Positions 5,132 through 29,896 are shown, counted from the stretch's first letter. The stretch: DNA of 64,000 nucleotides from Candidatus Methylomirabilis sp. (GCF_028716865.1 NZ_JAQUOY010000017.1:1-64000); one strand, 5' to 3'. Notes: a model not told the origin generated them from the sequence alone. Numbers and translations: made by a program.

Positions 5132-5359
5132 CTATTCAGCCTGCGCCGTTCGGCCCTCGGCTTCCCTCACCGCCCCTTCGATGTCCCACACGCGTACCTG
5201 CCGGCCACGTGCGCGGAGAATAGGCTCGGCCATCCGCTGGAGGCGCACCACCGCCCACACCTTCTCTGGAAACGGCAGCCCGGCCAGTTTGTGCCGACGC
5301 TGCTCCTTCGCGGCAAACAGCCGTGTTACCTCGGGACTCAGGGGTTCCACTGGGTCCAT
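5132..5359 (-). CDS. Small partner of nucleotidyltransferase (putative antitoxin-like protein)
   Basis: This 75-residue protein starts 22 bp inside the end of the upstream nucleotidyltransferase gene (5338-5835), so translation is probably coupled. It is charged, with no membrane segment or DNA-binding motif that I recognise (MDPVEPLSPEVTRLFAAKEQ). Comparable small proteins accompany AbiEii/MNT-type nucleotidyltransferases in toxin-antitoxin-like pairs. Which partner would be the toxin cannot be told from the sequence. Confidence 0.6.
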   Translation of the reverse strand: MDPVEPLSPEVTRLFAAKEQRRHKLAGLPFPEKVWAVVRLQRMAEPILRARGRQVRVWDIEGAVREAEGRTAQAE

Positions 5360-5835
5360 CGGCTTTCTAATCCGTGCCGTCCGAGTACGCCCATCAGATA
5401 GTCCCGATCGAGATGAGCCTGATCGAGGAGCAGGCGTACCCGCTCACGGTCCTTATCCCGACCGGTCTGGAGCGCGGCGGCAACCAGATGCTCCGCGCGT
5501 AACACGCGAGTGGGCGTGGCCTCGTAGAGCGTCTCACGCGCTTCAGTCAAGGCCTCCTCCAGTAGCGCATTGTAGGCTGGCAGAAACTGTACCGGCACTC
5601 CCTCGATATTCATGCACTCGTCCTCTTCGCGATAGCCCCGCGCGCGAAGTGCCCCATACAGTGGTTCCAGCGTCAGGAGACCACCAGGAGTCTGAGGCAG
5701 CGCGACAAACACGTCGAGATCGAATGTCAGCAGCGGCTCGGCGTAGAACGTGGCAGCCATCGCCCCACCGATGGCATAGCGGCTGATCACCCCGGCCTGC
5801 TCCAGGTCATTCAGGACTCGTAGCGTGGCTTCCAT
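5338..5835 (-). CDS. Nucleotidyltransferase, AbiEii/MNT-like
   Basis: This 165-residue protein carries the pattern YAIGGAMAATFYAEPLLTFDLDVFV near residues 20-45, matching the GG...T.DLDV nucleotide-transfer motif with its two metal-binding acids (DLD). The family transfers nucleotides and is often the enzyme of a toxin-antitoxin pair. The overlapping downstream small gene supports a two-gene module. It lies in a debris-rich region between the IS element and the methionine salvage operon, consistent with acquisition. Confidence 0.75.
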   Translation of the reverse strand: MEATLRVLNDLEQAGVISRYAIGGAMAATFYAEPLLTFDLDVFVALPQTPGGLLTLEPLYGALRARGYREEDECMNIEGVPVQFLPAYNALLEEALTEARETLYEATPTRVLRAEHLVAAALQTGRDKDRERVRLLLDQAHLDRDYLMGVLGRHGLESRWTQWNP

Positions 5836-7091: not shown

Positions 7092-7750
7092 ACCTCCGCC
7101 CCCACACGGTCGAGTACCGCCATGACATCGTAGAAGGTCTCAAACGGCTCATAGGTAATTCCGGCTTCCCGGCACTTGACGACCAACAGGTCGCGGGCCA
7201 TGACCAGGTCGGCCAGCCTGGCCGCTGGCAGGTCCGTGACCCCGTCCCCCACCACCACCCTGCGATACTGCGCTGACGGAAAGCGACGCATGATGCTGGG
7301 CTTGCACATCCCGCAATCGGCCCGGCAGTGCTCGTCGCACCCGTGAGGCCAGAGGATGCGTACCGTAGGGCCGCTCACGTCGCTTCCGTTACAATAGATC
7401 TGATCTCGTGGCAGGATCCCCTCCAGGATGGGGTAGATAAAGAAGTCGATCCCTCCACTGGTCAGTAAAAACCGGTGGTCATGGACCCGACAATACTCCA
7501 AAAACTCTCGAAGTCCGGATCGCAGCGTGGCGATCCGCCGAGCATACGCCACCATCTCCGGGACGCGGGACGAAGGGATCTGGGCAAAGAGGCGACCGAC
7601 CCCCTCCCGCACGCTCACCGTCCCGGCGATGATCGCATCACGCACCGCCTCCCATCCCGGCGGGCCAAAGGCCCTGAAGAGGGAGACGATGACCTCCTGC
7701 TCTGCGGCCGTCCCGTCGAAGTCGCAGAAGATGACTGTCTGCCGGCTCAT
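7082..7750 (-). CDS. mtnX: 2-hydroxy-3-keto-5-methylthiopentenyl-1-phosphate phosphatase
   Basis: This 222-residue HAD-family phosphatase has the nucleophile motif CDFDGTAAEQE near the N-terminus and the late acidic motif VVVGDGVTDLPAARLAD. It removes the phosphate after the enolase step to give acireductone. The separate enolase-plus-phosphatase arrangement (mtnW with mtnX) is the Bacillus-type route, in contrast to the fused MtnC enzyme. A cluster of Cys and His (CDEHCRADCGMC) is a feature of many MtnX-like proteins. Confidence 0.9.
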   Translation of the reverse strand: MSRQTVIFCDFDGTAAEQEVIVSLFRAFGPPGWEAVRDAIIAGTVSVREGVGRLFAQIPSSRVPEMVAYARRIATLRSGLREFLEYCRVHDHRFLLTSGGIDFFIYPILEGILPRDQIYCNGSDVSGPTVRILWPHGCDEHCRADCGMCKPSIMRRFPSAQYRRVVVGDGVTDLPAARLADLVMARDLLVVKCREAGITYEPFETFYDVMAVLDRVGAEVCG

Positions 7751-8973
7751 GCCGAAAACTCTTTAGGGATTCGGGCCTTGCCGCTACCCCACTGGTCAAG
7801 GGCCGCCCGTAGATCGCTGCTCCCTGTGGCTGCCTCTTCCAGAGGAATACCGGCCACGCTGGCGGCGATTGCCGCGCGGAAGGCCCGCCCACCCGCAGCC
7901 GCGCCGCTCGGATGAGCGTGGATGCCTCCGCCGGCGTTGACCACGACATCGAGGCCGAAATCGTCCATAATGTGCGGCACCAGGCCCGGGTGGATCCCCG
8001 CTGACGGGACCGGAAAGGTTCGGCGGTGGGGCAGGCCGTCCTTGTCCGTAAGTCGCCCAGCCAGATCCAGAGCCTCGGACCGTTCCAGGGCCATCCCACC
8101 ATAAGGGGACGGGAATAGGACCAGGTCGGCCCCGGCCAGCCGCATCAGCGTCCCCAACAACAGTGACGCGGCGATGCCGTAGTCGCCAGAAGGATAGAGC
8201 GCTCCGGCCAGCGCCGGGTGGGCCACGAGTGGGACGGTAATCTCCGGATCCTCGGCCAGCCGATGCAAGAGGTCAAATCCGTAGGGCAGGACATTGATGA
8301 GCAACGCATTCGCACCAAGCCGCACCGCCCGTCGGGCCTTCTCGGGAAGCCGATGCACCGGACCGGTCAGGTTGATCGCATACAGGACGACTTGGCCCGT
8401 CTCTCGTCGCGCTCGCTCGGCCGCTTGCAGGCACGCCTCCAAACGTTGCTCGAAAGGCGCGTCTGTATCGTTAAAGAAGATCTCGTCATCTTTGATCAGA
8501 TCGACGCCGCCCAACGCCTGCTGGAAAAAACCCTCGGCCAGCTCTTGGAGTGTAAGCCCCAGGCAGGCCTTGAAGATGCTCATGAGCAACGGCCGACTAT
8601 GAACTCCGAGTCTCGCGCGCACCCCTTCCACTCCAAGCTTCGGCCCCGGAAAGGCGGCGGCGAAGGTCGGCGGCAGGGCGAGATCAACCAGGCGGATCTT
8701 CCCATCCATCGAGAGTTTGCCGAAGGTGGCAGTCAGCAGTGATGGGAGGTCCGGCGTGAGATTCGCGAGCGGGTAGGCGATACGAATCAGGCCCGCCTCG
8801 ACCGTCACCACGCGGCCGGCATGGCGCTGAAGGGCCGTCTGTCTCTCGACCGACAGACCGGGCCAACTCCCGACCGTCATACCCAGCGCGATCGTCTCCG
8901 CCTTCTTCGTCCAATCGCCTCCGCCGGCGAGACGATAGGTCGCAATGACGTAATCGTTCCAGGTGTTGTCCAC
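7747..8973 (-). CDS. mtnW: RuBisCO-like 2,3-diketo-5-methylthiopentyl-1-phosphate enolase
   Basis: This 408-residue protein is a form IV RuBisCO-like protein. The loop GVDLIKDDE carries the Lys normally carbamylated in RuBisCO and the two metal-binding acids, and the rest follows a large-subunit-like barrel. The neighbouring mtnX, mtnB and mtnD make the enolase role likely in place of CO2 fixation. It is the first gene of the operon. mtnA and mtnK, needed to produce the substrate, are not in this window. Confidence 0.9.
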   Translation of the reverse strand: MDNTWNDYVIATYRLAGGGDWTKKAETIALGMTVGSWPGLSVERQTALQRHAGRVVTVEAGLIRIAYPLANLTPDLPSLLTATFGKLSMDGKIRLVDLALPPTFAAAFPGPKLGVEGVRARLGVHSRPLLMSIFKACLGLTLQELAEGFFQQALGGVDLIKDDEIFFNDTDAPFEQRLEACLQAAERARRETGQVVLYAINLTGPVHRLPEKARRAVRLGANALLINVLPYGFDLLHRLAEDPEITVPLVAHPALAGALYPSGDYGIAASLLLGTLMRLAGADLVLFPSPYGGMALERSEALDLAGRLTDKDGLPHRRTFPVPSAGIHPGLVPHIMDDFGLDVVVNAGGGIHAHPSGAAAGGRAFRAAIAASVAGIPLEEAATGSSDLRAALDQWGSGKARIPKEFSA

Positions 8974-9283: not shown

Positions 9284-10915
9284 ATGGCGCAACTACAGTT
9301 TAAGGGCAAAACGTTCGTACAGAATTATCATTTGCTGGTGAAGTATCACGAACTTGTCCCGGTCAAGGCCAAAAGCCTGACGGATCGGGTGACTCTCCAT
9401 GACAACCTGATTATCCACGGCGACAACCTGAAGGCCCTCAAAGCTCTCCTACCACTCTACGCCGGGAAAATCAAATGCGTTTACATCGACCCCCCTTACA
9501 ACACCGGCAACGAGAGTTGGGCCTATAACGACAACGTGAGTTCCCCGATGATGCAGGAATGGCTGGGCAAAGTCGTTGACCGCGAAGACTTGACCCGCCA
9601 TGACAAGTGGCTCTGCATGATGATGCCGAGGTTGAAGTTGCTCCGCGAACTGATGATCGAAGATGGCGTCATTTTCTTATCGATTGATGACAACGAGCAG
9701 TATCGTATCAGAGCGCTGATGGATGAGGTGTTTGGCGAAGACAACTTTGTCGAACAGTTCATTTGGAAGAAAAGCTATGGGGGTGGAGCAAAAGAAAAAT
9801 ACGTTGTCCGTCAGCACGAGTATTGTCTGATGTACGCACGAAACAAGCAGAACGTCCCCGACTTGTGGCTGCCGCCCGACGAGGAGGCAGAAGCGCGGTA
9901 CTACAAATACCGCGACTCCAAATTTGCGGAACGCGGGCCTTACAGGATCAAGCCTCTGGAAGCAACAAAAAGTATGGATCAAAGAGAGAATTTGGTCTTT
10001 CCGATCAAAGCTCCCGATGGAAGCGAGATTCGGCCCAAACGCCAATGGTGGTGGAGTCGAGACCGCGCAGAAAAAGCGCTTGCACAAGATGAACTTGTTT
10101 TTACGAAAACAGACGATGGCTATTCGGTCTCATACAAACAGTACCTGATCGATGAGGCTGGCGAAAAACGGGGGGCCAAGCCATTTTCTATAATTGACAA
10201 AATCTATACACAAGAGGGCACGGCAGATTTGCGCAGTGTTTTCGATGACCAAGTTGTTCTTCAGTTCCCGAAGCCAGTCGGCTTGATTAAGCACCTTCTC
10301 CGAATCGCCACTTCTGCGGAGAGTTCTGACCTAATTCTTGATTGCACCGGCGGTTCTGGTACGACAGGTCATGCAGTCTTGTCGCTCAACGCTGAAGATG
10401 ATGGCAACCGCCGGTTCATCCTAATCGAGTGCGAAGACTATGCGGATTCCATTACAGCGGAGCGTATTCGCCGCGTAATCAAAGGTGTGCCGACATCGAA
10501 GGATGAGGTTCTGAAGAAGGGCCTCGGCGGGTCGTTCAGCTTCTTCAGGCTCGGCAAGGCCATCGAACTTGAAAGCATCCTCGATGGCGACGGCTTACCG
10601 ACCTACAAAGAACTTGCCCGTTACGTGTTTTACACGGCGACCGGTGAGGAATTCGACGAAAAGGCTGTTGACGAGAAGAAGCATTTTATCGGTGAGAGCC
10701 GAAATTATCAGGCGTTCCTCTTCTACGAGCCGAACATTGCAAAGCTGAAAAATCTAGCGCTGACGCTGGACATGGCAAAGAGCCTGCCGCCCTTGAAGAA
10801 GGACAAGCGACGGTTGGTGTTTGCGCCGACCAAGTATCTGGATCAAGAGCACCTTGACCAACACCGCATTGACTTCGCGCAGTTGCCTTTTGAGATTTAT
10901 GAACTGACGAGGTGA
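9284..10915 (+). CDS. Type III restriction-modification methyltransferase (Mod)
   Basis: I chose the ATG at 9284 (GAGGTC upstream, MAQLQFKGKTF) instead of the longest frame from 9113, because the extra 57 residues are encoded by a repeat. The 543-residue product has the amino-adenine methyltransferase motif DPPYNTGN near residue 69 and the SAM-binding motif DCTGGSGTTG near residue 352. DPPY before the SAM motif is the beta-class order typical of Type III Mod. The region between them should contain the target-recognition domain. It would methylate one strand of the recognition site and guide Res. It ends 3 bp before the ATPase gene. Confidence 0.9.
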   Translation: MAQLQFKGKTFVQNYHLLVKYHELVPVKAKSLTDRVTLHDNLIIHGDNLKALKALLPLYAGKIKCVYIDPPYNTGNESWAYNDNVSSPMMQEWLGKVVDREDLTRHDKWLCMMMPRLKLLRELMIEDGVIFLSIDDNEQYRIRALMDEVFGEDNFVEQFIWKKSYGGGAKEKYVVRQHEYCLMYARNKQNVPDLWLPPDEEAEARYYKYRDSKFAERGPYRIKPLEATKSMDQRENLVFPIKAPDGSEIRPKRQWWWSRDRAEKALAQDELVFTKTDDGYSVSYKQYLIDEAGEKRGAKPFSIIDKIYTQEGTADLRSVFDDQVVLQFPKPVGLIKHLLRIATSAESSDLILDCTGGSGTTGHAVLSLNAEDDGNRRFILIECEDYADSITAERIRRVIKGVPTSKDEVLKKGLGGSFSFFRLGKAIELESILDGDGLPTYKELARYVFYTATGEEFDEKAVDEKKHFIGESRNYQAFLFYEPNIAKLKNLALTLDMAKSLPPLKKDKRRLVFAPTKYLDQEHLDQHRIDFAQLPFEIYELTR

Positions 10916-10918
10916 AAC

Positions 10919-12214
10919 ATGATTAAGCGAATTGAGATAGAGGGCTATCGGTTACTCGACAGCTTCGCCGCAGAGTTGCGGCCGCTAACGGTGGTTATCG
11001 GCGCGAACGCAGTCGGTAAAAGCACTTTACTTGACTGTCTTCAGTGTATTGCACAATGCTCTGATTTGCCTCTCAACACGGCCATCGGTTGGCATTGGGG
11101 AATGAACTCCTTACTGAACGCGGCCAGAAAAGATCGCAAGTTAAGCTGGCGGATCACATTCAGCAAACCGAAGGATCCGTTTTGGAGCCGCCTACCTCTT
11201 GATGACAGCCAAGCGTTTATCTACGAGGTTATCCTTCAGGGTGACGTGCAGGGACAAGCCCAGGCACAATACGAAGTCCTTCGTACACGCGAACCATACC
11301 AAGGCTACGCTGAAGCTTTCAAGTATCTGGAGGCGACACTATTTCGCAGGCAAGTCTACAGCCGCGAGCATCGCAAGCTTATGCCCTTCGATGAAGCGAT
11401 GCCGCCTTCGCAGCAGGTTCACGAGACGGGAACAGAATCCAAAAATGGAAGCGATCTCGGGTTGCCACCTGCGGCTCAAGAGCCCGCCCTGATGCTTTCG
11501 CAGATCAGGTTCTTCAATGAGTTCCCGATCCCTTCGTCCGCACGAGTGCTCCTCGCGAACATGACGTTTTATCCAGGCTTTGACGTGACTAGATTCTCAG
11601 GTCTTCGAACCAAGGCGGCAGAAATCAAGCCGATGACCATGCTTGCTCTGAATGGCGAGAATCTCGGAACCGTCCTACATGAAATCCTCACGCGGTACGA
11701 CTACCGACAGGCCGCGACCGATATCCGCGAATTTCTCAAGGCCGCTTACCCGGCATTTGAAGAAATCCATTGCGACACTACCCTAGGCGCGCCCGCTCAA
11801 GTTCTTGTCCGTGTGAGAGAAAAAGGGATGGAGCGGTCTATGGAGATGTGGGAGCTTTCCGATGGCATGTTGAGATTCTTGTGTCTGGCCTCGGCCCTGT
11901 TGAATCCGATTCCGCCACCCTTCGTTGCACTAGACGAGCCTGAAAGCGGATTGCATCCACGGCTTTTGCCTGTAGTGGCCGACATGATCAAAACAGCGTC
12001 GGAGCGAACGCAGGTACTTGTTACCACCCACAGCCCCGATCTCCTGAATCGGTTTAGCATTGATGATGTGGCCGTGATGTCACGCGGCGAGGATTTCAAG
12101 GCGGCATGGTGTCGTCCATCTGATCGAAAGACTCTAGTGGAAATGTTGAAGGATGTTGCAGGGGAAACCCTCGGCGATCTTCATCGCTCGGGCGAATTAG
12201 AGGCTATCGGATGA
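10919..12214 (+). CDS. SMC/RecF-like AAA ATPase within the restriction-modification operon
   Basis: This 431-residue protein starts MIKRIEIEGYRLL, typical of AAA_15/AAA_21 ATPases related to OLD and RecF. Walker A is GANAVGKST (residues 28-36), a signature-like LSDGMLRFL lies near 313, Walker B is FVALDEPESGLHP near 334, and VLVTTHSPDLLNRF follows as the H-loop. The central part should form the coiled or lid insertion. It overlaps the next gene by ATGA. ATPases of this type paired with Toprim or DUF4276 proteins are known in phage defence and DNA-end sensing systems. A role in regulating or assisting the Type III enzyme is inference. Confidence 0.85.
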   Translation: MIKRIEIEGYRLLDSFAAELRPLTVVIGANAVGKSTLLDCLQCIAQCSDLPLNTAIGWHWGMNSLLNAARKDRKLSWRITFSKPKDPFWSRLPLDDSQAFIYEVILQGDVQGQAQAQYEVLRTREPYQGYAEAFKYLEATLFRRQVYSREHRKLMPFDEAMPPSQQVHETGTESKNGSDLGLPPAAQEPALMLSQIRFFNEFPIPSSARVLLANMTFYPGFDVTRFSGLRTKAAEIKPMTMLALNGENLGTVLHEILTRYDYRQAATDIREFLKAAYPAFEEIHCDTTLGAPAQVLVRVREKGMERSMEMWELSDGMLRFLCLASALLNPIPPPFVALDEPESGLHPRLLPVVADMIKTASERTQVLVTTHSPDLLNRFSIDDVAVMSRGEDFKAAWCRPSDRKTLVEMLKDVAGETLGDLHRSGELEAIG

Positions 12215-12891
12215 AGGTGTGGGTCTATGTTGAAGGCGAGTCAGACCGGATCGCCTTAAACGCTCTGTGGGCGAAATGGAGAACTGCCCTGCGTCAAGCT
12301 GGCTGGGGCGTTCAATTGATACCGCTAGACGACAAGAGCCGCTTCTTCCGCAAGATTGGACCACACGCCACCGAAAAGCTCTTGGCGGACCCCCTTGATC
12401 TCGTTGTGGGACTACCGGATTTTTATCCGAACCAGCCTTTTGTCGGCACCCCGAACCAGCATGCTACCGTAAATGACCTCGTTAACCTTCAGCGCAAACT
12501 TGTCCAAGACACAATCACTCAAAAAGGCTTGGATGCAGCAAACCTCATTCAGCGCTTTCATCCATCTTCCTTGACGCATGATCTGGAGATGTTGCTCTTG
12601 GCAGCCCGTGATCAACTTCGTGCGCACTTGGGAACAAGCGATCACTTGGGGCACTGGCGACATCCCGTGGAAGATCAGAACCAAGACCAGCCCCCGAAGC
12701 GTGTTGTACAAACGCTGTATCTTCGAAAGAAAGGTCGCGCGTACCGGGACACGAAAGACGCAGCGGCAGTATTAGGTACGGTGACTGACCTCCAGCAGAT
12801 TCTTCATTCGGAATCCGGACAGTTGCAGTGTCCAGTGTTCAAGAACATGCTTGATTGGATCGGTACAAAAACAGGGGTCCCAGCCTGCTGA
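12211..12891 (+). CDS. Toprim-like DUF4276 protein, partner of the ATPase
   Basis: This 226-residue protein begins MKVWVYVEGESDRIALNAL, where VEGESD resembles the acidic Toprim motif. It later has LVVGLPDFYPNQ and THDLEMLLLAA, which fit the HEFEALL-type motif of DUF4276. Its start overlaps the ATPase stop, as expected for a two-component ATPase-nuclease pair of OLD or PARIS type. It lacks its own ATPase domain. Nuclease activity is plausible but not shown. A 25-bp gap leads to the restriction subunit. Confidence 0.7.
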   Translation: MKVWVYVEGESDRIALNALWAKWRTALRQAGWGVQLIPLDDKSRFFRKIGPHATEKLLADPLDLVVGLPDFYPNQPFVGTPNQHATVNDLVNLQRKLVQDTITQKGLDAANLIQRFHPSSLTHDLEMLLLAARDQLRAHLGTSDHLGHWRHPVEDQNQDQPPKRVVQTLYLRKKGRAYRDTKDAAAVLGTVTDLQQILHSESGQLQCPVFKNMLDWIGTKTGVPAC

Positions 12892-12916
12892 AATCAGCTT
12901 GTGGCGCATTCAGATT

Positions 12917-15457
12917 ATGCAGCTAAAAGAATACCAGCAAAGAGCGTTGGCCGGGATCAGGAGTTACCTCGAACTTCTGGCCGATCTGAAGAAGAAGGCC
13001 GAAGGCATAACTGATCGAGACTTGGCCTTTGACTTTGCGGCGAAGGCATGGGAAAAGGCTAAACTTCCGCGCCGGTATCTGCCGCGCAAGAACGGGCTGG
13101 GCCACTTATTGCCGACGTTTTGCCTAAAAGTCCCGACAGGCGGCGGCAAGACGCTCTTGGCAGTCAAGACGGTTGACCTTGTGAACACCGTTTACAGGAG
13201 GCGACAGACCGGACTTGTGCTCTGGATTGTGCCGACAACGCAAATTTACCGGCAGACGATTCAGCACCTGAAAGACCGGGACCACCCTTACCGCCAGCAC
13301 CTCGACATTGCGAGCGGAGGACATACGCTGATTCTCGAAAAGACGGACCACTTTGCCCCGCTGGATGTGCAGGAACGTCTTGTCGTGCTGATGCTCATGC
13401 TTCCATCGGCGAACCGGAAGACGAAAGAGACCTTAAAGGTCTTCAAGGACAGTGGCGGTTTTCAGGACTTTTTCCCGCCAGAGGACGACATTAAGGCCCA
13501 AGAAGCCACGCTCAAACGCTTCCCGAATTTGGACACCTACGAGAAGCAAAGTGGATTTTGGGGGCGGCAGATCAAAACGTCATTGGGGAACACGCTCAGA
13601 ACACTTTCGCCGGTCATTATACTCGACGAAGGGCACAAGGCTTACAGCGAGGGGGCGCAGGAGACTTTGCGCGACTTCAACCCCTGCCTGATTGCCGAGC
13701 TTTCGGCGACGCCGGTTCAAAGCAATATCCTCGTGGACATCACAGGCCGAGAACTGCACCACGAGGAAATGATCAAGTTGGATCTCCACGTCGTGAACAA
13801 GGCAAGCCCGGACTGGAAGGACACCCTGCTTGCCGGGGTGAACAAGCGGAATGTGTTGGAGGAAAAGGCCAAGGAGTACGAGGCGAACACGGGCATACAC
13901 ATCCGCCCGATTTGCCTGATTCAAGTTGAGCGCACAGGGAAAGATCAACAGGGCGGACGCTGGATTCATTCGGAGCAAGTCCGGGAACATTTAACGAAGG
14001 TGATGGGCATCCCGGCGGAACAGATCGCGGTAAAAACAAGCGAAAAGGATGAACTCAAGGAAGTTGACGACGTGGGCGGGCTTCTCGGGCGGGACTGCAA
14101 AGTCCGCTACATCATCACTAAGCAGGCACTTCAAGAGGGTTGGGATTGCTCGTTCGCTTACGTGCTCGTGATTCTGACGAATCCATCTTCACAGAATGCC
14201 TTAACCCAGCTTGTCGGTCGTATTCTGCGACAACCCTACGCGCGGAAGACCCAACTCCGGGAACTTGACGAAAGCTATGTGTTTTGCTTCCAGCAACGCG
14301 CCAATACATTACTGGAAAGCATTCGCGACGGCTTTGCCCAGGAAGGTTTGGGCGATTTGCGAGGACATATCGCCACCGAAGACGAACGCGGCGGTATGAC
14401 CGGCGATGACATGGACCGGCTTTTCGACATGCGCGAGCACTTCAAGCAGGCCGCAGGCCGAACGATTCTTCCGGTTTTCGTGGTCAAGAACAGCCACGGC
14501 TGGAGGCCCGTCAACTACGAAATGGACATTGCGGCCCGGATTCCGTGGGATGAAGTGACGTTGAGGCCGGTCATGCAATTGACTCTTTCCGAGTACGAGA
14601 AGAAAGACGTTGAGATCGGCGTCACGCTGACCGAGGACAGACATCGAGTGATCGAAGCTAGAGGCATTCATGATTTGAGGGAGGGCGGTATCCGCGTTGA
14701 TCCGGTCTTCATGACGCGACAAATCGGTGACATCGTGCCGAACCCCTGGCAAGCACACGAATTCGCCAAGCGGGTCTTGAATCATTTCTACACGATGGGC
14801 GGCAAGCAGGACGCTGAGCGGCTTATTGCTAATAACTTTGTTTTCCTGATCGAAGAACTACGGAAGCAACTTGAAGCTGAGAAAGACCGACTGGCCGAGC
14901 GGGTCTTCTGTTCGATGCTGGAAAAGGATGAGCTTCGCTTCCTGATCATCGGCAACAACCTCGACTGGTCTTTCCCGAAGTCCATAGCGATCAAGCCGAC
15001 TTCAAAGATTCTGACAAAGGAAAAGGGCGGGCAACTTGAGTTTAGTCTTTACGAGGCGGTGCCGGAGGATGACTTCAACGAGACCGAGAAAGCGGTTGCC
15101 TGGTATCTGGAAAACCAGCATCGGCTTTTCTTCTGGTTCCGAAATCGCGCAAGGCATGACTACTCGATTCAGGGATGGCGGGAGCACCGCATTTATCCCG
15201 ACTTCATTTTCACGGCGACCGACAGGAACGCTCACACGGATTACGAGCGCGTTTACGTGGTTGAAACCAAGGGTCTGCACCTGAAGGACAACGCCAAGAC
15301 CAATTACATCCGCAAAGTGTTCGACATCTGCACGCGACAGGCGAAGTCCAGAAACTGGAACGAACTTGGCCTTGAGATGAAAGACAAGGTGCTCCGCTTC
15401 GAGGTTCTGGATGAGGATGAATGGGAAGCGAAGCTGAACGAGGTATTGCTGGAATAG
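12917..15457 (+). CDS. Type III restriction enzyme, Res subunit
   Basis: I start at the ATG at 12917 (MQLKEYQQRAL). A frame from 12851 would overlap the previous gene, and no strong ribosome site decides between them. The 846-residue product is a superfamily 2 translocase with Walker A VPTGGGKTLLA near residue 72, DEGHKAY near 236, SATPVQSN, QEGWDCSFAYVL and LVGRILRQPYARKT (motif VI). A C-terminal PD-(D/E)xK nuclease site is seen as YPDFIF...YVVETKG near 761-784. It cuts DNA away from unmodified sites in complex with Mod. Confidence 0.92.
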   Translation: MQLKEYQQRALAGIRSYLELLADLKKKAEGITDRDLAFDFAAKAWEKAKLPRRYLPRKNGLGHLLPTFCLKVPTGGGKTLLAVKTVDLVNTVYRRRQTGLVLWIVPTTQIYRQTIQHLKDRDHPYRQHLDIASGGHTLILEKTDHFAPLDVQERLVVLMLMLPSANRKTKETLKVFKDSGGFQDFFPPEDDIKAQEATLKRFPNLDTYEKQSGFWGRQIKTSLGNTLRTLSPVIILDEGHKAYSEGAQETLRDFNPCLIAELSATPVQSNILVDITGRELHHEEMIKLDLHVVNKASPDWKDTLLAGVNKRNVLEEKAKEYEANTGIHIRPICLIQVERTGKDQQGGRWIHSEQVREHLTKVMGIPAEQIAVKTSEKDELKEVDDVGGLLGRDCKVRYIITKQALQEGWDCSFAYVLVILTNPSSQNALTQLVGRILRQPYARKTQLRELDESYVFCFQQRANTLLESIRDGFAQEGLGDLRGHIATEDERGGMTGDDMDRLFDMREHFKQAAGRTILPVFVVKNSHGWRPVNYEMDIAARIPWDEVTLRPVMQLTLSEYEKKDVEIGVTLTEDRHRVIEARGIHDLREGGIRVDPVFMTRQIGDIVPNPWQAHEFAKRVLNHFYTMGGKQDAERLIANNFVFLIEELRKQLEAEKDRLAERVFCSMLEKDELRFLIIGNNLDWSFPKSIAIKPTSKILTKEKGGQLEFSLYEAVPEDDFNETEKAVAWYLENQHRLFFWFRNRARHDYSIQGWREHRIYPDFIFTATDRNAHTDYERVYVVETKGLHLKDNAKTNYIRKVFDICTRQAKSRNWNELGLEMKDKVLRFEVLDEDEWEAKLNEVLLE

Positions 15458-16268: not shown

Positions 16269-16586
16269 TCACGCGGTCTTCTGCGGCACAAGGCGTACTT
16301 GAAGCTCACACCCCACAGCCTTGGCATATCGCTTGAGCGTGGCGAGCGACGGAGCGTGCTTTCCGGCCGATTCGAGCCTGGAGACCGCGCTCTTCGTCGT
16401 ACCCATCCGTTCTGCGACGGCGTCTTGCGTCAGACCTGCACGGGATCGTGCTTTGAGCATTTGGTTGGCTACCTGGTACTCAAGCGCAAGGGCGTCGTAC
16501 GCTTCGATGAATCCCTTGCGGGTTGCCGCCTTGGCAAGGAATTCCTTATGGCTATGGCGGATGGGCTTAAATTTCAGTTCAGGCAT
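16269..16586 (-). CDS. XRE-family antitoxin, HigA-like
   Basis: This 105-residue protein has a helix-turn-helix in its C-terminal half (GLTQDAVAERMGTTKSAVSRLES, about residues 50-72). The N-terminal helix region presumably binds the toxin. Its start overlaps the toxin stop by 8 bp, giving the toxin-first order of HigBA-type modules. Such antitoxins repress their own promoter and neutralise the RelE-fold toxin. It is intact. Confidence 0.8.
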   Translation of the reverse strand: MPELKFKPIRHSHKEFLAKAATRKGFIEAYDALALEYQVANQMLKARSRAGLTQDAVAERMGTTKSAVSRLESAGKHAPSLATLKRYAKAVGCELQVRLVPQKTA

Positions 16587-16905
16587 CTGATACCTCCTTC
16601 AGGCGCTTGCGCGCCAGCTTCAGTTCTCGATCGGGCGTATGCTGTGACTTCTTGAGGAAGGCGTGCAGCACGACGACCCGTTTGCCGACGAGAAAGCAGT
16701 AGAACGCCCTGCCAACGCTCGAACGCCCGCGAGGCCGAAGCTCGAACAAGCCATCACCAAGAGCTCGCGAGTACGGAAGCCTGAGCGTTGGTCCATATTC
16801 GGTCAGCAGTTCGACCAAGCGCGCGTAGTCCGCGAGGACGTCCACAGGCCACGACTCAATCTCGTGGAGTACCCGCTCGTGGAAGTACTCGATCTCGAAG
16901 GACAT
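16579..16905 (-). CDS. RelE/HigB-like toxin (Gp49 family)
   Basis: This 108-residue protein fits the phage Gp49-like HigB family: EYFHERVLHEIESWPVDVLA at the start, then LPYSRALGDGLFELR and RAFYCFLVGKRVVVLHAFLKKSQHTP, with the basic residues typical of the ribosome-dependent mRNA nuclease fold. It is the first gene of a toxin-antitoxin operon with the XRE gene. It lies between gene fragments, consistent with horizontal gain. Confidence 0.82.
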   Translation of the reverse strand: MSFEIEYFHERVLHEIESWPVDVLADYARLVELLTEYGPTLRLPYSRALGDGLFELRPRGRSSVGRAFYCFLVGKRVVVLHAFLKKSQHTPDRELKLARKRLKEVSDA

Positions 16906-17199: not shown

Positions 17200-17478
17200 C
17201 TAACCAGTTGCTCGCTTGCGGGGAGCGCGTGTTAAACGAGGCGATTGAGGCTTTGCGTACGAGTCTACATAGGCATCAACAAGTCGGCGAATCATGCGTT
17301 GGTACTGCGTATTGTGTTTGGCTGCCTCGGATTTGAAGAAATCAACACTTTTTTTGCTGAGAGCGATGGTGACCTTCACTCCTTGCTCTCGGAACGCGAG
17401 ATCCGAGGGGGGAGGCAGGAAGTCTCGAATGACTTTGGCCTCGAAAGGTTCATCGGTATATTTGATTTTTGTGCTCAT
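17200..17478 (-). CDS. BrnA-like antitoxin
   Basis: This 92-residue protein has the pattern VTIALSKKSVDFFKSEAAKH followed by YQRMIRRLVDAYVDSYA, typical of CopG-type ribbon-helix-helix antitoxins of the BrnA group. It begins 29 bp inside the end of the brnT reading frame, the usual BrnT-BrnA order. It is intact although its toxin gene is interrupted, so it may persist as an orphan repressor. Confidence 0.75.
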   Translation of the reverse strand: MSTKIKYTDEPFEAKVIRDFLPPPSDLAFREQGVKVTIALSKKSVDFFKSEAAKHNTQYQRMIRRLVDAYVDSYAKPQSPRLTRAPRKRATG

Positions 17479-28549: not shown

Positions 28550-28639
28550 TGGCGGAGAGGCCGGGATTCGAACCCGGGGCAGAGTTTCCCCTGCTCACGC
28601 TTTCCAGGCGTGCCAGTTAAACCGCTCCTGCACCTCTCC
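28550..28639 (-). tRNA. tRNA-Ser (GGA)
   Basis: The complement has acceptor GGAGAGG/CCTCTCC, anticodon loop CTGGAAA with GGA, a long variable arm (GAGCAGGGGAAACTCTGC region) and T-arm CGGGTTCGAATCCCG. CCA is encoded. It reads UCC and UCU. Confidence 0.95.
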
Positions 28640-28648
28640 ACAAAACTT

Positions 28649-28745
28649 CAGGGTTTAGGGTATAGGGGGTAGGGTGGAGGGGGAACAGCTACGCTCTGAT
28701 CTCCGCCTTTGACCCTGAACCCTATGCCCTTCACCCTATACCCTG
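28649..28745. repeat. Imperfect G-rich inverted repeat between two tRNA-Ser genes
   Basis: CAGGGTTTAGGGTATAGGG at the left is matched by CCCTATACCCTG-type sequence at the right, with arms of about 30 bp that pair imperfectly. It belongs to the same family as 27181-27256. Confidence 0.75.
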
Positions 28746-28751
28746 TTTTTC

Positions 28752-28843
<92 letters not shown>

Positions 28844-28917
28844 ACGACAAACAGCGCACAGCCATCAGCCGTTAGCTTTCAGCTTTAGCTGAGGGCTGAC
28901 AGATGACAGCGTTCTGC

Positions 28918-29391
28918 CTATACCCTGCTGTTCTTCGCCCGTTTGGCGCGCCGGAGGACGCGCACATCCGCACGATCCTGGGCTCTGCCGGCTGCTTCTT
29001 TGGCCTGGATCAAATCGTCAAGCCCAAGATAGTAGGTCTTGACAGATCCAAAAATGGCCTCTGTCTTTCTCTTCCATGCCGCACCGAAGCTTCGGCACCC
29101 CGGTATCTGCGAGGCCAAGTCTATTCGAACCGGCGCAACCCCCAACTGGATAATCCACCGCGGGTCCGTCAAATCTGCGACCCCGTAACCCAGATCGACG
29201 TCTCCAAAGAAGTCTCGTAGCGCGTCGAGAGCCCTCTGGGCGTTCGCCGCAGTGGGGTCCAGCAGGATATCAAGATCCTTCGTGGCGCGCGGACGGGCGT
29301 GGAACGCGACCGCGTAGGCGCCGATCACCAGATACCGGACTCCATGGGCGTTCAATGCGGCGATGAACTCTTCGTAGTCTTGGAACGGCAT
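28918..29391 (-). CDS. Nucleotidyltransferase, MNT-like
   Basis: This 157-residue protein has YLVIGAYAVAFHARPRATKD followed by LDILLDP, the nucleotidyltransferase motif with DLDIL acids near residue 38. The C-terminal part (LGLDDLIQAKEAAGRAQDRAD) is typical of AbiEii-type enzymes. It overlaps the preceding small gene by 122 bp and forms a two-gene module wedged between tRNA-Ser genes. The pair could be a toxin-antitoxin or a housekeeping nucleotidyltransferase; the sequence does not decide. Confidence 0.78.
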   Translation of the reverse strand: MPFQDYEEFIAALNAHGVRYLVIGAYAVAFHARPRATKDLDILLDPTAANAQRALDALRDFFGDVDLGYGVADLTDPRWIIQLGVAPVRIDLASQIPGCRSFGAAWKRKTEAIFGSVKTYYLGLDDLIQAKEAAGRAQDRADVRVLRRAKRAKNSRV

Positions 29392-29575
29392 TGCGCCCCC
29401 GCGTTTGCAGACACGCTGTCAACGCCTCAGCGACGGCCTCCACACGCTCCTCTGGGGTGAGCTCTTCGTACCAGAAGCGAAAGTCTTCTTTCTCTGCTTC
29501 TCTCCACGGGACCTTCGCAATCGTCCAGATTCTGCCCTGGCCGTCGATAACCTGTCTGCGTTCGGTCATGCCCAT
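29270..29575 (-). CDS. Small partner of the nucleotidyltransferase
   Basis: The first 70 residues (MTERRQVIDGQGRIWTIAKV, FRFWYEELTPEERVEAVAEA) look like a conserved companion of such nucleotidyltransferases. The last 30 residues are encoded in the region shared with the nucleotidyltransferase, in another frame, and are Arg- and Pro-rich. The native stop may have been lost by a frameshift. ATG at 29569 (MTERR) is a possible alternative start. Confidence 0.6.
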   Translation of the reverse strand: MGMTERRQVIDGQGRIWTIAKVPWREAEKEDFRFWYEELTPEERVEAVAEALTACLQTRGRNAVPRLRRVHRRIERPWSPVSGDRRLRGRVPRPSARHEGS

Positions 29576-29612
29576 ACCCTCATACCCTACACCCTATACC
29601 CTGCTTTTAAAT

Positions 29613-29704
29613 TGGCGGAGAGGCCGGGATTCGAACCCGGGCTGCACCTTTCGGCGCAGACTCGCTTAGCAGGCGAGCACCTTCGGCCACTCGGTCACCT
29701 CTCC
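29613..29704 (-). tRNA. tRNA-Ser (GCT)
   Basis: The complement has acceptor GGAGAGG/CCTCTCC, anticodon loop CTGCTAA with GCT, a long variable arm (GCGCCGAAAGGTGC) and T-arm CGGGTTCGAATCCCG. CCA is encoded. It reads AGC and AGU. Confidence 0.95.
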
Positions 29705-29713
29705 GCATAACGA

Positions 29714-29809
29714 CAGGGGTTAGGGGATGGGGGGGTAGGGTGCAGGAACCCATCCACCATCACTTCACACTCTAACCCCTAATCTCTAATCCCTATCCCC
29801 CGCTCTTTT
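29714..29809. repeat. G-rich / C-rich inverted repeat between tRNA-Ser genes
   Basis: CAGGGGTTAGGGGATGGGGG at the left is countered by CTAACCCCTAATC and CCCTATCCCCCG at the right, an imperfect inverted repeat of the same low-complexity family. Confidence 0.65.
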
Positions 29810-29810
29810 G

Positions 29811-29896
29811 TGGCGGAGGGGGTAGGATTCGAACCCACGAGGCTTTCGCCTAACGGTTTTCAAGACCGCCGCCTTCAACCACTCGGCCACCCCTCC
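29811..29896 (-). tRNA. tRNA-Ser (TGA)
   Basis: The complement has acceptor GGAGGGG/CCCCTCC, anticodon loop TCTTGAAAA with TGA, a long variable arm (TTAGGCGAAAGCCTC) and T-arm GTGGGTTCGAATCCTAC. CCA is encoded. It reads UCA and, by wobble, other UCN codons. It lies 83 bp downstream of serS. Confidence 0.95.

Follow-up and report, generated by a model that had tools for sequence, protein, structure and literature searches.

An ATPase-DUF4276 gene pair between mod and res of a Type III restriction-modification operon in Candidatus Methylomirabilis sp.

The 64,000-nucleotide stretch of Candidatus Methylomirabilis sp. analyzed in this study (GCF_028716865.1, NZ_JAQUOY010000017.1:1-64000; hereafter the window) contains a Type III restriction-modification (R-M) operon in which two genes, encoding an OLD/PtuA/AriA-like ABC ATPase and a DUF4276 protein, are located between mod and res. 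The best explanation, to which we assign a probability of about 0.68, is that these two genes are an independent PARIS/HEC-01-like defense cassette that was gained without a scar between the mod stop codon and the res start codon and hitch-hikes on the mod-res promoter. The cassette resembles a mobile passenger more than an integral part of the operon, because its relatives occur in many bacterial immune operons and sometimes in housekeeping ones.

The operon with and without the pair

The operon comprises the following features, all on the plus strand:

9284..10915, +, mod, Type III beta-class N6 adenine methyltransferase of 543 amino acid residues (Pfam N6_N4_Mtase, 107.5 bits; PADLOC MTase_III, 511 bits)
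10916..10918, +, 3-bp spacer between mod and the ATPase gene, left boundary of the gained cassette; homology to G025 and L033 runs as far as the mod stop codon
10919..12214, +, OLD/PtuA/AriA-like ABC ATPase of 431 residues (AAA_21, 112 bits), a divergent PADLOC HEC-01A
12211..12891, +, DUF4276 protein of 226 residues, a probable Toprim-like nuclease and divergent PADLOC HEC-01B (PF14103, 26.1 bits)
12892..12916, +, 25-bp spacer between the DUF4276 gene and res, right boundary of the gained cassette; the homology sets in again with the res start codon
12917..15457, +, res, Type III restriction subunit of 846 residues with an SF2 helicase and a C-terminal PD...ETK nuclease motif (PADLOC REase_III, 581 bits)

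All four open reading frames (ORFs) are intact. They are separated by 3 bp, by a 4-bp ATGA overlap in which the ATPase stop meets the DUF4276 start, and by 25 bp, and the four genes would be co-transcribed from one operon. The gene identities, order, positions and gaps were given in an earlier note on this DNA, and the ORFs and the Pfam and PADLOC profiles agreed with it.

Two relatives of this operon lack the pair. In the complete genome of the congener G025 (locus L021), whose Res is 93% identical to that of the window at the amino acid level, the TGA of mod is followed after 3 bp by the ATG of res. At locus L033, mod is 91% identical over its full length and res is 89% identical, and the 144 bp between them are unrelated to the pair. 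In the comparison with either, the homology of the window ends precisely with the mod stop codon and begins again precisely with the res start codon, which also backs the assignment of the res start to position 12917. In L033, the closest relative over the full length, the 144 bp (L033:9857-10000) open with a 12-codon ATG frame behind the same ribosome-binding context as in the window and may be what is left of another cargo gene. No repeats were found at the cassette edges. Transposon insertion and target-site duplication were rejected on this lack of repeats and on the breaks exactly at codons.

The pair was also absent from more distant relatives. It was not found in three further congeners whose Res proteins are 40% identical to that of the window, and neither the ATPase gene nor the DUF4276 gene was found anywhere in the fetched DNA of 69 Res-family loci, which were drawn from a scan of a one-genome-per-species collection. 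In the canonical Type III operon mod adjoins res, as it does in nearly all of these relatives, whereas in the window the pair lies in between. The gap between the two genes is 60 bp or less in 51 of the 67 Res-family loci that have mod upstream. Other cargo identified in the slot between mod and res included a UvrD-like helicase (L052:8455-10008), a Bro-N/DinD-like protein (L056:7467-8339) and a DUF559 endonuclease-like protein (L059:9266-9871). In addition, a 189-residue protein that resembles a nucleotidyltransferase by eye (L034:274-840) and a NotI-like protein encoded next to a truncated mod (L037:8879-9796) were observed in or near this slot. The pair was rejected as a conserved Type III component, as none of the 69 Res-family loci and none of four congeneric Type III operons carry it. 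The simplest history would be that the lineage of the window acquired the pair, the slot being one that now and then receives cargo.

The mod and res genes themselves are predicted to be ordinary members of Type III R-M. Mod possesses DPPYNTG at residue 69 and the motif I region at residue 353, which is the beta-class order, with a variable target-recognition domain in between. Res contains a Walker A motif at residue 73, DEGH at 237, SATP, helicase motif VI at 433 and the PD...ETK motif at residues 760-786. Thus, a beta-class Mod with DPPY and motif I accompanies a Res with an SF2 helicase and a C-terminal PD-(D/E)XK-type nuclease motif, as in other Type III systems. The mod genes of the window and G025 are 84-86% identical at the nucleotide level at their two ends but wholly different in the middle (window 9698-10408), which is a target-recognition-domain swap. 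The Mod motif I of the window (10340-10366) reads DCTGGSGTT, while that of relatives reads DSFAGSGTT or DSFAGTGTT.

The pair and its relatives

The ATPase possesses intact motifs, including Walker A at residue 28, the ABC signature LSDG at 313, Walker B at 337 and an H-loop at 369. Its family profile matches the solved structures of OLD, GajA, PtuA and AriA. HEC-01A (PDLC04175) was the best of 144 PADLOC families for this protein at 174.9 bits, and the AriA profile scored 111.5 bits. The structural model of the ATPase is of low confidence, its usable part being the ABC/SMC-like core alone. An AbiEii toxin label, obtained through PF13304, was rejected as an artefact of the family name. Matches to the ATPase on plasmids were enterobacterial proteins of 28-29% identity, and no R-M gene was annotated beside the plasmid homolog at the one locus looked at with gene annotation.

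The DUF4276 protein scored 26.1 bits against PF14103, under the curated cut-off of 30.2 bits, and it barely matched HEC-01B (PDLC04188; 16.3 bits, E 0.0015). Its match to PF20469, the OLD-like Toprim family, was very weak (E 0.041). Three acidic residues, E8, D70 and E126, are conserved across its family; when checked against the Toprim pattern of E plus DxD, the protein of the window has DxY where DxD is expected. The AlphaFold model was unusable (pLDDT 36.8), and no solved structure in the PDB matched the protein by sequence. It is reasonable but unproven that the DUF4276 protein is a Toprim-like nuclease. The weak point of this assignment is its basis, namely the sub-threshold PF14103 score, the very weak PF20469 match, the three conserved residues and the architecture of the pair. 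No plasmid homologs and no viral relatives of this DUF4276 protein were found. Pairs of an ATPase and a DUF4276 gene do occur in viruses or prophages (L234 and L236). Moreover, a contig of a viral collection carries in tandem a gene for a 1241-residue NTPase-like protein, an ATPase gene, a DUF4276-like gene and a gene for a 922-residue protein (L235:1793-10081), which resembles another embedded case. No paper naming DUF4276 was found in the literature searched.

The survey of the pair covered 395 genomes of a different phylum, the one to which locus L061 (titled Deltaproteobacteria) belongs; 88 DUF4276 matches were found in 60 of these genomes, and 80 loci were read. The ATPase and DUF4276 genes form a real module, because the ATPase gene was detected directly upstream of the DUF4276 gene in 75 of the 80 loci, most commonly with a 4-bp overlap. 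A gene of a methylation-based defense system (Type I, IIG, III, BREX or Hma) adjoined the pair in 18 of the 80 loci. The embedded or adjoining pairs were as follows:

BREX: PglX-pair-PglZ at L155, L161 and L166; pair-PglZ at L159
Hma: HmaB-pair-HmaC at L202; also related DUF1156/DUF499 loci
Type I: L157, L169, L181 and L229
Type IIG: L172 and L225
Type III: L200, L211 and the fragment L203
Weak PglX-like neighbor: L177

At L211 the order mod-ATPase-DUF4276-res is the same as in the window, with Mod and Res unrelated to those of the window. In G026, a genome of the window's own genus, the order is ATPase-DUF4276-mod-(small ORFs)-res. The ATPase tree requires four separate origins for the four Type III cases.

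R-M-like genes made up 11 of 152 immediate neighbors of the pair versus 5 of 513 other nearby genes (p = 1e-4), a rough test, as the reference proteins were few, came from outside the sample and had themselves been chosen as neighbors of the pair in other genomes. All five R-M-like genes among the 513 belong to the same embedded operons. A first count of 26/152 versus 8/513 was circular, its references having come partly from the same neighbors, and was replaced. In this comparison, the pair adjoins methylation-based systems more often than expected by chance; the earlier note had suggested such a test for Type III R-M. The search for the same four-gene order, also suggested in that note, yielded the independent case at L211 and no case among the 69 Res-family loci.

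The nearest relative found was the pair at L208, whose ATPase and DUF4276 proteins are 32% and 35% identical to those of the window; its ATPase is the sister of that of the window with support of 100/99, although both are long branches and the exact position is unsure. The L208 pair is located between carB-like and purF-like genes, with no R-M operon, and its DUF4276 protein scored 29 bits against PDLC04189. Similar to this pair, an ATPase and a DUF4276-like gene at L120:8368-10136 are tightly placed between NuoE-like and NuoF-like genes. This module may commonly insert into housekeeping operons without leaving a scar. The subfamily formed by the DUF4276 proteins of the window and L208 is rare, because its profile gave two weak partial matches among 398 genomes of one phylum and no match among 400 genomes of a second phylum.

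Among known systems, the closest pair is HEC-01 in PADLOC nomenclature, which stands for Hma-embedded candidate 01. According to citing papers, HEC-01 is said to originate from Payne et al. 2024 (doi 10.1101/2024.01.29.577857). HEC-01 and the pair of the window share the two-gene order of ATPase and DUF4276, the overlap and the placement inside a methylation-based defense operon. Of the PADLOC models, HEC-01A matches the ATPase best (175 bits), whereas HEC-01B barely matches the DUF4276 protein. The hosts also differ: that of HEC-01 is an Hma operon, which is name-giving and maybe not defining, whereas that of the window pair is a Type III mod-res operon. HEC systems, not HEC-01 specifically, are cited as confirmed to protect in two papers (PMC12111858, PMC11411939).

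In PARIS, an OLD ATPase holds a Toprim nuclease and releases it on sensing a phage protein (PMC12409363), and AriA senses the anti-restriction protein Ocr (PMC12409363, PMC12839542). Similar to PARIS (AriA/AriB, OLD class 4), the pair of the window consists of adjacent genes for a split OLD-family ABC ATPase, encoded separately, and a Toprim-type partner, which is putative in the window. Different from PARIS, the partner is DUF4276 rather than AriB, with DUF4276/HEC-01B-type matches and no AriB-type match among the families listed, and the ATPase is closer to HEC-01A. Pairs of an OLD ATPase and a nuclease, regarded as backup effectors, have been reported inside BREX-type loci of at least 1242 taxa (PMC12839542). 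These OLD-ABC/TOPRIM effectors likewise lie between core genes of a methylation-based system; the host in the window is a Type III R-M system, however, and that paper does not mention DUF4276. In V. cholerae VPI-2, TgvAB has been proven by experiment to be a two-gene defense system; it lies inside a Type I R-M operon and protects independently of HsdR (PMC11411939). It resembles the pair of the window in being a two-gene system embedded in an R-M operon and differs in its proteins, which are unrelated and form a GmrSD-like Type IV restriction system, and in its Type I host. No description of a Type III host for such a pair was found in the literature searched, outside of which lay Payne et al. 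2024 and a 2020 survey of ABC ATPases. By its predicted proteins, the pair of the window belongs to a known kind, as a divergent representative hosted by a Type III system.

Possible roles of the pair

As an independent cassette, the pair would be transcribed from the operon promoter and would find its ribosome-binding context in the last bases of mod, where GAGGTGA, just before the ATG, may serve as the Shine-Dalgarno sequence of the next gene, whichever follows. Most likely, the pair would work alone as a second layer of defense. By analogy with PARIS, sensing probably falls to the ATPase and the effector role to the DUF4276 protein: an ATPase oligomer would keep the nuclease inactive, recognize a phage product and then release or activate the DUF4276 nuclease. 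The activated nuclease might cut nucleic acid and abort the infection, which would cover phages that escape restriction. We infer the anti-phage activity, the ATPase-nuclease complex, its trigger and the substrate of the nuclease.

The same observations can be read as functional embedding, in which the pair monitors its R-M host and is triggered by the binding of a phage inhibitor to Mod-Res or by a failure of restriction. Such guarding is suggested by the enriched adjacency to methylation-based systems, by the spread of embedding over Type I, IIG, III, BREX and Hma and by the precedent of Ocr sensing in PARIS (PMC12409363, PMC12839542), although clustering in defense islands alone could raise adjacency. 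No adjoining R-M gene was detected for 62 of the 80 pairs, the nearest relative sits in a carAB/purF-like operon, partners vary by lineage with four origins for four Type III cases, and none of the 69 relatives of this R-M system carries the pair. A guard function over R-M is therefore possible, but we regard it as unlikely and unneeded to explain the pattern. The broader proposal, in which HEC-01/DUF4276-type pairs are general guards of restriction-type immunity that were repeatedly and separately placed between core genes of these five kinds of system and sense failure or inhibition of their host, is similarly doubtful. It is very improbable that the pair is a dedicated regulator or subunit, for instance one that uncouples the translation of res from that of mod, controls the activity or expression of Res or acts in a Mod-Res complex; the cassette does part two genes that are tightly spaced in most relatives, but close relatives with a near-identical Res manage without it and homologous pairs accompany quite different systems or none. 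About as improbable is a neutral or decaying chance insertion without a defense role, whose DUF4276 protein would be inactive and which would be a selfish or housekeeping passenger. The divergent DUF4276 sequence under the Pfam cut-off, the rarity of its subfamily and the pairs in housekeeping operons (L120 and L208) are consistent with it, whereas the two intact ORFs, the conserved ATPase motifs and acidic residues, the enrichment near defense systems and the protection reported for HEC-type relatives (PMC12111858) argue against it.

Several points count against an independent cassette. The nuclease activity of the DUF4276 protein is putative, given its sub-cut-off PF14103 score, its useless model and the lack of a solved structure matching by sequence. 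Gain rather than loss was decided by parsimony over unrooted comparisons. The pair adjoins methylation systems above chance, so a functional partnership is possible. Finally, the exact four-gene order was clearly found only once elsewhere, at L211.

The earlier note had proposed that the pair and the R-M genes form a combined system. The underlying idea holds in that an ATPase/nuclease pair inside an R-M operon is real and recurrent (18/80); a dedicated combined Type III system is not supported, given the absence of the pair from all 69 Res-family loci and all four congeneric operons, the precise gain and the closest relative in a carAB/purF-like operon. The same note would have taken the arrangement for a chance insertion if related loci kept the pair and the R-M genes apart or if it occurred nowhere else. 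The pair is indeed absent from the 69 loci of this Res family, but L211 indicates that its position is not a unique chance event.

Neighboring genes and implications

Directly upstream of mod, on the opposite strand, is a gene for a RuBisCO-like protein (window 7747-8973, -), whose neighbors resemble methionine-salvage genes encoding a phosphatase, a class II aldolase-type dehydratase and an ARD-like protein. A 165-residue ORF at 5338-5835 (-) resembles a nucleotidyltransferase-type antitoxin by eye and has no Pfam match. Just 3' of res, at 16269-16905 (-) and 17200-17478 (-), are Gp49/HigB-like toxin and helix-turn-helix antitoxin genes, together with an ORF that weakly resembles BrnA antitoxins and has no obvious partner. 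Further along, four tRNA-Ser genes (GGA, CGA, GCT and TGA) are clustered at 28550-29896 (-).

The operon provides a clean, near-isogenic empty-site comparison for embedded defense genes hosted by a Type III R-M system. Its three alleles are set apart by the sequence that joins the mod stop to the res start, namely 3 bp, 144 unrelated bp or a two-gene cassette. Hitch-hiking on the promoter is argued to be sufficient for the embedding, because the nearest relative, L208, sits in a housekeeping-type operon. The alleles make it directly testable whether a shared promoter or functional guarding is the reason that defense pairs are lodged within operons of other immune systems.

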